From NCBI RefSeq assembly GCF_900188375.1, contig NZ_FZOO01000001.1, positions 248,001-312,000 of the forward strand: a DNA stretch of 64,000 nt, given 5' to 3'. This DNA comes from Geodermatophilus pulveris. Lineage in GTDB: Bacteria > Actinomycetota > Actinomycetes > Mycobacteriales > Geodermatophilaceae. Below are positions 6,815 through 41,766 of the stretch, piece by piece (positions within the stretch are counted from its first letter, which is position 1; each line of letters starts with the position of its first letter). Made by a program: the position numbers and the translations under genes. A model generated the notes under the pieces. That model was not told where the DNA came from. It searched no databases and saw nothing but the letters and a program-made list of their open reading frames with translations.

Positions 6815-6880
6815 GGTCATGGCGCTCGGGGAGCGACACGCCGCCGGCTGGCGGAGGGTCGCTCCCCGTCGTCCGTGATC
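6815..6880 (+). repeat. 66-bp palindromic repeat, copy 1
   Basis: A 66-base near-palindrome bounded by GGTCATG on the left and CGTGATC on the right. The inner arms CGGGGAGCGAC and GTCGCTCCCCG pair perfectly. Copies of identical length occur at 38626-38691 and 39675-39740. It sits just after the deoA stop, so it could also work as a terminator. Confidence 0.75.
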
Positions 6881-22740: not shown

Positions 22741-22783
22741 GGCGGTGGGGCGGTGCGTCCCCAGGACGCACCGCCCCACCGCC
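22741..22783 (-). terminator. 20-bp perfect hairpin between tctC and tctB
   Basis: Two 20-base arms, perfectly complementary, flank a 3-base loop (plus-strand left arm 22741-22760, right arm 22764-22783). The hairpin starts 7 bases after the tctC stop in the direction of transcription and ends about 24 bases before tctB. Likely a partial terminator or mRNA stabiliser giving excess binding protein. Confidence 0.8.
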
Positions 22784-37510: not shown

Positions 37511-38566
37511 GTGCCGATCGACAACCCGTACTACTCCGCCGCCGTCCACGGTGACTACCAGGTCGCCGACATCGGCGACCTCGCGCTCGAGGAGGGGGCC
37601 ACCCTCCGCGGCTGCCAGCTGGCCTACCAGACGCTGGGCACGCTGAACGCCGCCAAGGACAACGCGGTGCTGGTCACCAGCTGGTACTCCGGCAACCACT
37701 CGATCATGCGGGACACCTACGTCGGCGCGGGCCGGGCGATCGACCCCGCCGAGCACTTCGTCGTCCTGGTCAACCAGCTCGGCAGCGGGCTGGGCACCTC
37801 GCCGCACAACACGGCCGGGCCCTACGGGCGGGCCCGCTTCCCGCGGGTGCGCATCGGGGACGACGTGGTGGCCCAGGAGCGGCTGCTGCGCGAGGTGCTC
37901 GGCGTGGAGGAGCTGGCGCTGGTCTTCGGCGGGTCGATGGGCGCCCAGCAGACCTACGAGTGGGCCGTGCGGTTCCCCGACCGGGTCAAGCGGGCCGCCC
38001 CGCTCGCCGGGACCGCGCGCAGCTACCAGCACTGCATCCTGTTCAGCCAGACGCTGGTCGACGCCCTCACCTCCGACCCCGGCTACGCCGGGGGCTGGTA
38101 CCGCGACAGCGAGGACGTCCGCGGCGGGCTGCAGCGGCACGCCGGCCTGTTCGCGCTGTACGTGCTGTCCAACGACTTCTGGACCGGGGAGCACTGGCGG
38201 GCGCTGGGGTTCAGCTCGCCGGAGGACTTCGTCACCGGCTTCCTGGAGGCCTACTTCCAGCCGATGGACGCCGGCGACCTGCTCACCCAGGCCTGGAAGT
38301 GGCAGCGCGGCGACGTGAGCCGGCACACCGGCGGGGACCTCGCCGCGGCGCTGGGCCGGATCACCGCGAAGACGGTGGTCATGCCCATCAGCACCGACCG
38401 GTTCTTCCCGCCGGAGGACTGCGCCGCCGAGCAGGCACTGGTCCCGGGCAGCGAGCTGCGGGTCATCGAGGACGTGCACGGCCACGCCTCGCTGTTCGGG
38501 CTGACCCCGGCCTACCTGGAGCAGGTGGACGACGCGCTGCGGAGCCTGCTCGCGACCGACACCTGA
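37511..38566 (+). CDS. Homoserine O-acetyltransferase-like alpha/beta hydrolase
   Basis: Alpha/beta-hydrolase fold of the MetX family, 351 residues. Nucleophile elbow GGSMGAQQTYEW, preceded by NQLGSGLGTSP; acid in STDRFFPPED; His in DVHGHASLFG. Genuine MetX proteins carry GGSMGGMQ at the elbow; the Ala-Gln-Gln variant here is common among uncharacterised relatives, so homoserine acetylation is not assured. Leaderless start. A 66-bp palindromic repeat follows about 60 bases after the stop. Confidence 0.75.
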   Translation: MPIDNPYYSAAVHGDYQVADIGDLALEEGATLRGCQLAYQTLGTLNAAKDNAVLVTSWYSGNHSIMRDTYVGAGRAIDPAEHFVVLVNQLGSGLGTSPHNTAGPYGRARFPRVRIGDDVVAQERLLREVLGVEELALVFGGSMGAQQTYEWAVRFPDRVKRAAPLAGTARSYQHCILFSQTLVDALTSDPGYAGGWYRDSEDVRGGLQRHAGLFALYVLSNDFWTGEHWRALGFSSPEDFVTGFLEAYFQPMDAGDLLTQAWKWQRGDVSRHTGGDLAAALGRITAKTVVMPISTDRFFPPEDCAAEQALVPGSELRVIEDVHGHASLFGLTPAYLEQVDDALRSLLATDT

Positions 38567-38625: not shown

Positions 38626-38691
38626 GATCATGGGCTCAAGGAAGCGACACGCGGCGCCGAGGCGGTGTGTCGCTTCCCGGAGGCCGTGATC
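38626..38691 (+). repeat. 66-bp palindromic repeat, copy 2
   Basis: GATCATG to CGTGATC ends, with arms GGAAGCGACAC and GTGTCGCTTCC pairing perfectly around a GC-rich centre. By hand about 50 of 66 positions match copy 3 in the same orientation. A tandem pair of the 13-mer CCTCTCCTCGCGA (38602-38627) abuts its left end. It lies just before the frameshifted AbiEi-like gene. Confidence 0.8.
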
Positions 38692-38765
38692 GTCGGGCGT
38701 CCACAGGACGGCGGTGATCCACAGAAGCCGCTGGCGACGTCCGCTCCACCGCGCGGGGTCCGACG

Positions 38766-39682
38766 GTGCCGGGCATGGACTTCGCCCTCTACCGCCTCAT
38801 CGCCGCCCAGGGCGGGGTGTTCACGACCTCCCAGGCTCTCGACCACTGCGGTGACACCGGGCTCCGCGCGCTCGTCCGCAGCGGCCGGTGGCGCCGTAGC
38901 CGGTACCGCGGGGTCCTGGTCGGCGGCGAGGTCCCGGACACGCCCGCCCTGCTGGTGCGTGCCGCGGCGCTCGCGGTCGGCGGCGACCTGGTCGCGTGCC
39001 ACTCGACGGCGGCCGCCCTGTGGGGCTTCGACGTCCTCGGCCCCGGGACGCTGCACTTCCTCGGCCCGCCGGAGGTGGGCAACCGCCGCCGGCCGGGCAT
39101 CCAGGTCCACCCGTCGTCCCTCGGGACGGAGGACGCGGTCCTGGTCGACGGCGTCTGGTGCACCCCGGCGGCCCGGACCGCGTGCGACGTGGTGCGGCTG
39201 ACGCCGGCCATCGACGGGCTGGCCACGCTGGACGCCGCACTGCGCTCCGGCTCCTGCACCCGGGAGCAGCTGGCCGGCGCGGCGGAGGCCCAGGCCGGGC
39301 TGCGGCAGGTGGCCGGCTGCGGCGCCTGGTGCCGCACGCCGACCCACGCATCGACTCCCCGATGGAGTCCCGGATGCGCTGGCGGTTCCTCGACGCCGGG
39401 TTCCCGGCGCCGGACCTGCAGGTCGAGGTGGCGGCGGGTGGCCGTGCCCGGTGGCTGGACCTCGGCTGGCGTGCGGAGCGGGTCGGCGCGGAGTTCGACG
39501 GTCAGGAGTCGCACATGACGCCGCAGCAGCTGCGCGACGACCGGCACCGGCACAACTGGCTGACCGAGCACCGCTGGACGCTGCTGCACTTCACCGGTGC
39601 CGACGTCTACCGCGGCCACCGGCAGATGCTCGCCGTCACCGCCCGGGCACTCGGCCTGCGGCCCGGCAGCTGGCGATCATGA
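38766..39682 (+). pseudogene. Frameshifted AbiEi N-terminal/DUF559-like gene
   Basis: One protein split over two frames. Residues from GTG 38766 (ATG 38775 is alternative) show an AbiEi-type winged helix, QGGVFTTSQALDHCGDTGLRALVRSGRWRRSRYRGV, given here in outline, then CHSTAAALWGFDVLG. Near 39314 the frame must gain one base: in the next frame the sequence continues RRLVPHADPRIDSPMESRMR, then a nuclease-like LDLGWRAERVGAEFDG. Restoring one C (GTGGCC-CGG) gives a family-like protein of about 305 residues. Relatives are antitoxin-like or of unknown function. The stop TGA (39680-39682) lies inside repeat copy 3. A sequencing error cannot be excluded. Confidence 0.7.
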
Positions 39683-39740
39683 GGTCCGGGAAGCGACACC
39701 CCGCGCCTGACCGGCGCGTCGCATTCCGGAGTCCATGATC
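39675..39740 (+). repeat. 66-bp palindromic repeat, copy 3
   Basis: GATCATG to CATGATC ends with GGGAAGCGAC on the left and GTCGCATTCC on the right; exactly 66 bases like the other copies and in the same orientation as copy 2. It overlaps the end of the frameshifted gene and supplies its stop codon. Confidence 0.8.
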
Positions 39741-39775: not shown

Positions 39776-40246
39776 TCAGACGCCGGTGGAGCGGCACTCC
39801 CGGGCGCGGAGGTCGGCGAGGTAGTCGTCCGGGGCGCCGGCGGCCTCGGCGGCGTCCGCCAGCGCCCCCAGGTACCGCGCCGAGGGGAGCCCGCCCTCGA
39901 AGGCGTCCAGCACGTAGACGTAGGCCACCCGGTCGCCGGTGAGCGTGTGCACCCGCAGGTTGAGCTTCCGGTACAGCCCCAGGTCGGCCCCCTCCCAGGC
40001 GTCGAGCGCCGCCTCGTCGGCCTCGGTCAGGTCGTAGAGGGCGACGAAGACGCCGGGGGACGGCGACCGGCCCGCGGCGTCGTCCGGGACGACGGTGGCC
40101 AGCGCACCCTCCCAGCCGAACTCCTCGCCGCCGAAGGTCAGCCGCCAGCCGGTGATCCAGCCGGTCCCGGCGTGCGGGGAGGAGGGGCAGCGCCGGAGCA
40201 TCTGGGCGGGGTCCATGTTCGACCCGTAGGCGGCGTAGAGGCCCAT
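39776..40246 (-). CDS. Gamma-glutamylcyclotransferase-fold protein
   Basis: GGCT-like fold (PF13772/PF06094 type), which releases 5-oxoproline from gamma-glutamyl compounds in characterised members. The 156-residue protein begins with the diagnostic YAAYGSNMDPAQM, followed by GWEGALATVVPDD, GVFVALYDLTEADEAALDAWEG with the catalytic Glu region, YRKLNLRV and AYVYVLDAFEGGLPSARYL. ATG 40246 has a TAGGCT box 8 nt upstream (minus strand) and a clean family N-terminus. Divergent from lpdA. Confidence 0.85.
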   Translation of the reverse strand: MGLYAAYGSNMDPAQMLRRCPSSPHAGTGWITGWRLTFGGEEFGWEGALATVVPDDAAGRSPSPGVFVALYDLTEADEAALDAWEGADLGLYRKLNLRVHTLTGDRVAYVYVLDAFEGGLPSARYLGALADAAEAAGAPDDYLADLRARECRSTGV

Positions 40247-40254
40247 CACCGGCC

Positions 40255-40362: not shown

Positions 40363-41766
40363 ATGACGCGCATCGTGATCATCGGCGGCGGACCGGCCGG
40401 CTACGAGGCCGCGCTGGTCGCCGCATCCCTCGGTGCGCAGGTCACCGTGGTGGAGCGCGACGGCGTCGGCGGGGCGAGTGTGCTCACCGACTGCGTGCCC
40501 TCCAAGACCTTCATCGCCTCGGCCGGCGTGATGAGCAGCGTCCGCGACTCGACCGCCCTCGGCGTGCGCGGCTCGGAGCTCGGCGCCGTGGGCATCGACC
40601 TGGTCGCGGTGAACCAGCGGGTCAAGGGCCTGGCCGTGGCGCAGTCCGCCGACATCCGGGCCCGGCTGGTCGGCGAGGGCGTGCGCGTCCTCGCCGGGCA
40701 GGGCCGGCTGTCCGACGAGCGCCGCGGCCTGGTCGAGCACCGGGTCGAGGTGCTGGACGGCGACGGCTCGGTCACCGAGACGCTGGAGTGCGACGTCGTG
40801 CTCCTCGCCACCGGGGCCGACCCGCGCGTGCTGCCCGGCGCCGAGCCCGACCACGAGCGGATCCTCGACTGGCGCGACGTCTACGACATCCAGGAGATGC
40901 CCGAGCACCTGGTCGTCGTCGGCTCCGGCGTCACCGGCGCGGAGTTCGCCTCCGGCTACCTGGAGGCCGGCGTCCCGGTCACTCTGGTGTCCTCCCGCGA
41001 CCGGGTGCTGCCCGGCGAGGACTCCGACGCCGCCGAGGTGCTGGAGACCGTCTTCCAGTCCCGCGGCGGACGGCTGGAGCGCGGGCGCGCCGCCGCCGTC
41101 CGGCGCACCGAGAAGGGCGTCGTCGTCGAGCTGACCGACGGGCGCACCGTCGAGGGCTCGCACGCGCTGATGACCGTCGGGACCATGCCCAACACCGCCG
41201 GGCTGAACCTGGAGGGCACGGGCGTGGAGCTGGCGCCGTCCGGGCACGTCGTCGTCGACCGCGTCTCGCGCACCAGCGTGCCCGGCGTGTACGCCGCCGG
41301 CGACGTGACCGGGGTGTTCCAGCTGGCGTCGGTGGCGGCGATGCAGGGCCGGATCGCGATGTGGCACGCGCTCGGCGAGGCCGTCACGCCGATCCGGCTC
41401 AAGACGGTGTCGGCCAACGTCTTCACCCACCCGGAGATCGCCACCGTCGGCGTCCAGGAGAAGTCGATGCCCGAGGGCGCCGACATCGAGGTCGTCCGGC
41501 TGCCGCTGGCCACCAACGCGCGGGCCAAGATGGCCGACCTGCGCGACGGGTTCGTGAAGCTCTTCGCCCGCAAGGCGACCGGCGTGGTCGTCGGCGGCGT
41601 GGTGGTCGCCCCGGGGGCCTCCGAGCTGGTCCTGCCGATCGCGCTGGCGGTGACCAAGGGGCTGACGGTCAGCGACCTGGCGCAGACCTTCGCCATCTAC
41701 CCGTCGCTGTCCGGGTCCATCACCGAGGCCGGCCGGCGGCTGATGCGGGCCGACGCGCTGGCCTGA
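40363..41766 (+). CDS. lpdA: NAD(P)H-quinone dehydrogenase, LpdA-type flavoprotein
   Basis: Pyridine nucleotide-disulfide oxidoreductase fold, 467 residues, very similar in pattern to Mycobacterium LpdA (Rv3303c), an NAD(P)H:quinone reductase. FAD motif VIIGGGPAGYEAAL; NAD motif VVGSGVTGAEFASGYLEAG; YAAGDVTG; C-terminal IYPSLSGSITEAGRRLM. The redox-active pair is incomplete: in GGASVLTDCVPSK only Cys44 remains and Ser39 replaces the first Cys, which rules out lipoamide dehydrogenase chemistry. ATG 40363 starts directly at the flavin motif. Confidence 0.92.
   Translation: MTRIVIIGGGPAGYEAALVAASLGAQVTVVERDGVGGASVLTDCVPSKTFIASAGVMSSVRDSTALGVRGSELGAVGIDLVAVNQRVKGLAVAQSADIRARLVGEGVRVLAGQGRLSDERRGLVEHRVEVLDGDGSVTETLECDVVLLATGADPRVLPGAEPDHERILDWRDVYDIQEMPEHLVVVGSGVTGAEFASGYLEAGVPVTLVSSRDRVLPGEDSDAAEVLETVFQSRGGRLERGRAAAVRRTEKGVVVELTDGRTVEGSHALMTVGTMPNTAGLNLEGTGVELAPSGHVVVDRVSRTSVPGVYAAGDVTGVFQLASVAAMQGRIAMWHALGEAVTPIRLKTVSANVFTHPEIATVGVQEKSMPEGADIEVVRLPLATNARAKMADLRDGFVKLFARKATGVVVGGVVVAPGASELVLPIALAVTKGLTVSDLAQTFAIYPSLSGSITEAGRRLMRADALA

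Follow-up and report, generated by a model that had tools for sequence, protein, structure and literature searches.

We suggest that the palindromes described here, together with the nuclease-like gene that some of them bracket, probably form a mobile system similar to REP/RAYT or homing elements and built on an unrelated nuclease, with the palindromes as cognate sites of the encoded protein. The 66-bp type seems to belong to a larger set of palindromes from soil bacteria, in which each kind has a nuclease-like gene of its own. The pairing of gene and palindrome is well supported by sequence comparison, from which the bracketing of the gene, the matching of types, joint travel, polymorphic presence, covariation and active-site-like conservation all emerge. 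No published description of such a system was found in open-access full texts (the best-matching part where there were many; most subscription journals lie outside this set), and we regard its novelty as provisional.

The palindromes and the gene between them

An earlier note on the window (the whole 64-kb stretch of DNA analysed here) had described three intergenic palindromes of 66 bp, and all three are present, in imperfect form, at 6815-6880 (copy 1), 38626-38691 (copy 2) and 39675-39740 (copy 3). They have the GATCATG-like termini ascribed to them, copies 2 and 3 starting with GATCATG and copy 1 with GGTCATG, and end in CCGTGATC (copies 1 and 2) or CCATGATC (copy 3); the common orientation that had been claimed is nominal only, since the copies are palindromes. 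Copy 1 is a solitary palindrome of type 1, located 16 bp past the stop codon of the upstream gene, whose named best matches belong to Geodermatophilus, Blastococcus and other Geodermatophilaceae (best 80 of 585 loci). Copies 2 and 3, also of type 1, lie on the upstream and downstream sides of the nuclease-like gene and, as proposed, delimit a unit; the gene inside it is AbiEi-like and frameshifted, and tblastn recovers it as two pieces in different frames. The AbiEi-like part (38775-39314, plus strand) is 79% identical to residues 1-180 of a 301-aa orthologue. The nuclease part, in the other frame (39317-39682, plus strand), has a tblastn match to residues 182-295 at 39317-39658 (65% identical) and does take its stop codon from copy 3, the TGA at 39680-39682 with which the listed ORF ends. 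At this site, termed location A, the unit is preceded by a plus-strand gene (37511-38566), presumably homoserine O-acetyltransferase-like, and followed by a convergent minus-strand gene (39776-40249) that we take to be gamma-glutamylcyclotransferase-like. The next plus-strand gene (40363-41766), by our assumption lpdA-like, served as the host-locus marker, and its relatives were used in the tree comparison below.

Folded as plus-strand RNA, copies 1, 2 and 3 gave z-scores of -5.4, -8.6 and -5.4 against dinucleotide shuffles, with 0/200 shuffles folding as well in each case, and predicted hairpins of -38 to -50 kcal/mol. No T-run was seen 3' of the three window copies, and the 64-kb window contained neither a match to an Rfam family at the gathering score nor an Rfam intron. 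Elsewhere in the window (22741-22783), a perfect 20-bp inverted repeat with a 3-base loop lies between two minus-strand genes and looks like a terminator hairpin.

A type-1 covariance model (R1), trained on eight copies, all from the genome containing the window (4.38 Mb, 26 contigs), detected 12 distinct copies in that genome at E <= 1.1e-4, all of 66 bp and including the eight training copies, as well as one further weak match (E 0.04); the family is thus not limited to the three copies of the window. R1 matches at E <= 1e-6 were obtained in 37 of 112 Geodermatophilaceae genomes, representing 7 of 12 genera. Eighty stretches fetched around listed R1 matches, plus the window, yielded 96 distinct copies (a weak match in L071 being excluded from all counts), of which 95 are exactly 66 bp long and one (L139) is 65 nt. 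In an alignment of the 95 copies without L139, standard pairs made up 86.7% of paired cells, and 172 cells were double-changed, compared with 86.7±10.5 after shuffling (0/500 shuffles reached 172) and no more than 73 in slid structures, which bears out the compensating arm changes reported for the window. The REP- or MITE-like reading put forward at the time thus stands as far as a real palindromic, nearly fixed-length, covarying family is concerned, but is incomplete, as the bracketed gene would be a cognate partner and not incidental. Outside this bacterial family, two genomes from other families of the order (G029 and G027) gave 22 and 3 weak R1 rows, with best E-values of 2.8e-5 and 7.2e-5.

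All 12 copy pairs spaced 1046-1056 bp apart enclose the same nuclease-like gene; a thirteenth pair, 545 bp apart (L075), has gene remnants between its members, and two wider pairs (L113 and L118) enclose other genes. In L113 (2639-4219), the gene enclosed by two type-1 palindromes beside the nuclease unit is of another kind, encodes 526 aa and is a possible cargo. Among the matches listed for the 112 genomes, the gene subfamily occurs in 34, at one locus each and with 55-100% identity, and general paralogues are set apart at 31-39%. As we read these matches, the gene is full length in 24 of the 34 genomes, broken in six (G000, the window's own genome, G003, G075, G112, G116 and G078), reduced to remnants in three (G012, G015 and G089) and cut by a contig end in one (G066). 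Read by eye, 24 of 30 fetched loci have palindromes on both sides of the gene, the six others being L154, L168 (upstream N-masked), L175, L176 (contig end), L180 and L181. The upstream palindrome is found 79-94 bp ahead of the matched gene start in 25/30 loci, and the downstream one between 7 bp inside and 49 bp past the matched gene end in 29/30. In 13 of 26 subfamily references, the protein ends in residues (RS, or TIM plus two) encoded by the downstream palindrome. Both palindromes are kept beside the broken gene in G000, G003 and G112.

Palindromes detected by R1 or by the corresponding type-2 model (R2, see below) are present in 33/34 gene-bearing genomes compared with 26/78 without the gene (Fisher 4.5e-11, uncorrected for shared descent). 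Many rows can also occur in the absence of the gene, as in G014 (29 R1 rows) and G080 (24 R2 rows). Both G080 and G106 (14 R2 rows) are incomplete genomes (76% and 70%) with no subfamily match, in which the gene may have been lost, left unassembled or diverged.

Judged by eye from the neighbouring genes, the unit sits at location A, which extends between what we take to be meaB-like and lpdA-like genes, in 26 of 30 loci, at location B in three and at location C in one, and it may therefore either move rarely or home to one place. A single palindrome between the meaB-like and lpdA-like genes is what is left at location A in G014 (L079), with the unit gone, as if the flanking copies had recombined. 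The second location, a transporter junction, was compared across genus g21, where the flank was matched in 20 of 23 genomes and the junctions were read by eye. There, G112 and G113 carry palindrome, gene and palindrome (the gene of G112 being broken), G097 has the gene with its upstream side masked, and G114 and G115 (flank ~94% identical) keep a single decayed palindrome; an ordinary hairpin occupies the site in G101 and G117, and the two genes nearly abut in G111 and G108. Most of the remaining genomes do not have the other gene next to the flank and so do not allow a comparison. Presence of the unit is polymorphic in this genus. By eye, no target-site duplication was evident at two junctions examined. 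Insertion into pre-existing hairpins, as judged by outer-flank complementarity, found no significant support (z -1.3, -1.1, -0.9 and -0.3). A search for plasmid or phage carriage of the subfamily returned six plasmid records and one phage record, all weak (<=38% identity) and none covering 80% of the query.

Palindrome types and solitary copies

Palindrome types and unit locations were assigned by eye. Type-2 palindromes flank the gene in seven genomes; they are 56 bp long (55 bp in one case) and have the same GATCATG ends as type 1 with different arms. The model R2 was built on ten such gene-flanking copies from six genomes, and, with both strands counted, it returned 9-36 rows per genome in all seven type-2-gene genomes, where flanking copies account for at most four. 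At thresholds that differ between the models (1e-6 for R1, 1e-4 for R2), R1 rows outnumber R2 rows in 12/12 genomes with a type-1 gene, in 9/12 with a type-1' gene and in 0/7 with a type-2 gene, a comparison covering 31 of the 34 gene-bearing genomes (G015 and G089, with remnants, and G077, of type 3, were left out). The type-1' exceptions, with more R2 than R1 rows, are G065, G066 and G072, and many R2 rows also occur in several type-1 genomes, including the window's own. This last genome has 16 R2 rows, with 56-bp type-2 palindromes away from the type-1 gene (G000:C16:647951, C14:465929 and C13:74786), as if it had once hosted both. Judging from these counts, the palindrome type of the gene largely predicts the dominant solitary type in a genome.

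In a tree of 24 subfamily proteins and two outgroups, the palindrome types (outgroup included) need three changes, which is the minimum; five type-2 proteins form a clade with support of 100/100, type 1 is weakly supported (27/88), and type 1' needs three changes. A tree of the lpdA-like genes from the same loci, with fewer rows (20 loci), needs seven changes for three types where the minimum is two; shuffled types gave a mean of 9.4 changes and as few as seven in 11/200 cases, and the starred branches force four changes for type 2. On these trees, palindrome type tracks the protein better than it tracks the neighbouring gene. Taken together, three changes on the protein tree against seven on the lpdA-like tree suggest joint entry of the gene and its palindromes into the same locus in different hosts.

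The placement of solitary copies was counted for 69 of the 96 type-1 palindromes, the 27 at gene-bracketed loci being left out, and genes in the fetched loci were called by a custom composition script. Almost all solitary copies (67/69) lie downstream of at least one gene, with flanking genes in tandem in 36 cases, convergent in 31 and divergent in two. A stop codon is found within 45 bp of the start or end of the copy in 58/69, and some copies supply the stop themselves. Given the intergenic bases available at the same loci (30657 tandem, 5794 convergent and 12998 divergent), solitary copies are depleted at divergent sites (binomial p 2e-7) and enriched at convergent ones (p 6e-12). These 69 copies come from 15 genomes and represent 51 site groups, of which 15 are common to two or three genomes; an origin of solitary palindromes solely as scars of whole units is possible but less likely, because these 51 groups are set against only three unit locations. 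Non-orthologous copies resemble each other more closely inside one genome (0.784) than across genomes (0.736), a gap reached by 0/2000 label permutations over all pairs.

At the locus of copy 1, reading by eye of the 14 closest relatives listed revealed type-1 copies in two Blastococcus and, in another Blastococcus, a type-2 copy whose left end is worn, the remaining 11 having various hairpins or no clear one. A different palindrome (GAGATCTGCAC...) lies past the gene at the copy-1 position in L196, and a similar one is found downstream of a paralogue in L282.

The protein, its possible action and rival explanations

Pfam matches of the protein, among them MTES_1575 nuclease, AbiEi_1, AbiEi_4 and DUF559, all fall below the curated cut-offs. 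An AlphaFold model was built for the intact G011 orthologue on a 43-row alignment (A4, 43 of 46 references, L276, L176 and L177 being left out) and had a pLDDT of 92.3 and a pTM of 0.87. Its sole Foldseek match below an E-value of 0.001 was the AbiEi antitoxin 6y8q (E 9.8e-5), and the I-Bth0305I catalytic domain (3r3p) was matched with a probability of 0.99 but a weak E-value of 0.12. The model thus predicts an AbiEi-like DNA-binding part followed by a nuclease domain resembling that of I-Bth0305I. Residues E198, D229, E240, H247 and D256, which we take to correspond to the EDxHD site, are invariant in 43/43 proteins. As the protein combines domains of AbiEi and I-Bth0305I type and is bracketed by palindromes of roughly matching size whose type changes with it, it is best read as a nuclease that would act on its own palindromes.

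We propose that every palindrome serves as cognate DNA site for such a two-domain protein, with its AbiEi-type DNA-binding part and its Vsr-like or EDxHD-type nuclease. Two subunits would sit on the two inverted half-sites and the nuclease would cut there; repair of the cut could then copy the palindrome, or the whole palindrome-gene-palindrome unit, to new places, or alternatively replace another type at the same locus in the fashion of a homing element. Solitary palindromes may be non-autonomous copies, or scars of units that have lost the gene; they might persist immediately downstream of genes because they do no harm in that position, and may serve as terminators.

Parts of this scheme have precedents in the cited papers as excerpted. 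Two 23-bp inverted repeats are the binding sites of AbiEi (PMC7319586), and the target on which I-Bth0305I forms a dimer is nearly 60 bp long (PMC3943268), about the size of the palindromes described here. The 10-bp difference between types 1 and 2 (66 and 56 bp) also has a counterpart in two AbiEi-type operators with spacings of 3 and 13 bp (PMC7319586). With REP/RAYT systems, in the excerpted account, the palindromes share dispersed intergenic positions, a gene lying between two copies, repeats that vary with the gene, and abundance of cognate repeats where the gene is present (PMC2817692), with the exceptions noted above. They differ in the enzyme, which is predicted to have AbiEi-like and Vsr/EDxHD-like parts instead of being a Y1 (HUH) tyrosine transposase, in copy number (12 type-1 copies in the window's genome, where REP usually exceed 100 per genome) and in length (66 or 56 bp). 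EDxHD homing endonucleases are alike in the conflict between unit types at one locus and the host-locus tree and in the coexistence of intact, broken and remnant genes, and may be alike in the fold of the nuclease domain, but the DNA-binding part here is AbiEi-like, whole palindromes are present on both sides, solitary cognate copies exist, and the window has no Rfam intron. The type IV toxin-antitoxin antitoxins of the AbiEi group share the predicted fold and include inverted-repeat binders (PMC7319586), whereas our protein has an added predicted nuclease domain, palindromes on both sides and elsewhere, and no evident toxin gene adjoining it (by eye). The GTAG- and CGTC-tagged palindromes are likewise short and dispersed but, as excerpted, measure 20-40 bp and have other end tags (PMC3733652).

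Binding, cutting, copying or movement, and termination are steps that we infer, and four other explanations have to be weighed. The palindromes could be bidirectional transcription terminators kept for that role, with the bracketing of the gene secondary, an account which we consider unlikely. It agrees with the position of 67/69 solitary copies downstream of a gene and of 31 between convergent genes, with their depletion at divergent and enrichment at convergent sites, with the stability of the predicted hairpins and with the unrelated GC-rich hairpins that several relatives have at the copy-1 locus. However, a terminator has no need of conserved arms, near-fixed length or matching to one gene family and its type; furthermore, the three window copies are not followed by a T-run, and 12 copies per 4.38 Mb would serve few gene ends. 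Less probable still is a role as operators of an autorepressor, with the solitary copies as its regulon: although AbiEi proteins bind inverted repeats in their own promoter (PMC7319586, as excerpted), the predicted fold is AbiEi-like and a palindrome precedes the matched gene start by 79-94 bp in 25/30 loci, this explains neither the second palindrome at the gene end in 29/30 loci nor the presence of only 2/69 solitary copies between divergent genes, and an invariant nuclease-like site would be superfluous for a repressor.

The relationship to antitoxins (PMC7319586, as excerpted) and the nuclease-like domain would also suit a gene for defence or of toxin-antitoxin type, with palindromes that label the cell's own DNA or shield it from the nuclease that the gene encodes. 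We find this quite improbable, as no toxin partner was evident by eye among the neighbours (translated starts) of 30 loci and both palindromes persist beside the broken gene in G000, G003 and G112. Finally, classical REP elements with a RAYT-type tyrosine transposase as their mover would account for the architecture, which is as described for RAYTs (PMC2817692, as excerpted), but the REP-associated transposase that the earlier note suggested looking for is absent: the Y1 profile PF01797 matched 0/112 genomes of the family and 5/14 control genomes. Unless a RAYT escaped the profile, we reject it as the mover and regard this explanation as barely credible.

Paralogues and other palindromes

A nuclease acting on private palindromes, as favoured above, could have a much wider distribution. 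PF18741 was unsuitable as a probe for the wider family, its best matches being mostly in open frames >1000 aa, so the A4 profile was used instead; it matches 54/60 sampled genomes of the class, with up to 15 matches each. Genes of this kind are common in actinobacteria and go by the names AbiEi-family antitoxin or DUF559 protein. Whether they represent one large unrecognised group of selfish elements is a question on which we are evenly divided. Each would be an AbiEi-guided Vsr/EDxHD-type nuclease with a private palindrome, propagated both in units that have the palindrome on either side of the gene and through solitary copies seeded at gene 3' ends, and the group would parallel REP/RAYT by convergence. 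If true, this would assign a function to a gene family that is very common (the 54/60 genomes above), account for one class of palindromes dispersed at the ends of genes, and mean that a REP/RAYT lifestyle had evolved anew on a nuclease of unrelated origin; the many gene-palindrome pairs would then amount to a natural code in which DNA-binding domains are matched to long sites, and this can be tested directly.

Among twenty paralogues from the family, a dyad is present in at least one flank of 18 and in both flanks of 11, with arms unlike those of types 1 and 2. An automatic bracket test, requiring a dyad in both flanks and a common 14-mer with at most one mismatch, was passed by 15/30 loci of the subfamily, 11/20 family paralogues, 4/8 in the window's own genome and 9/30 in the class sample, to which that genome contributes one of the 30 loci and one of the nine passing; half of the subfamily loci and 21/30 class loci failed. 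Only 1/373 other genes passed as controls, and that one sits between two real copies. Swapped flanks gave 1/289 for the class and 0/74 for the own genome, against 53/289 for the subfamily and 21/191 for the paralogues, the last two values being high, as expected where members share palindromes. A first version of the test with a stricter dyad was passed by 7/29 subfamily loci, 10/20 paralogues, 2/8 in the own genome, 0/4 in the class and 0/330 controls.

A second palindrome family, famB, was found by its exact core pattern in 12/112 genomes (reversed pattern in 0/112). At 11 of 16 fetched famB loci there is no such gene within their 3 kb, and in nine of these solitary copies the core is 14-37 bp away from a stop codon; two are located between divergent genes. 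Class-wide, the motif GATCATG/CATGATC occurs 46 times in 23.7 kb adjoining the genes compared with 21 times in 89.2 kb elsewhere at the same loci, and adjoins the gene in 9/30 class loci. GATCATG termini are found near only 1/28 family and own-genome paralogues; their absence near the other 27 indicates that the end motif is not universal. At three class loci (L361, L365 and L352), the gene has not one palindrome per side but rows of GATCATG half-sites, which face inward from either flank and resemble multiple terminal inverted repeats.
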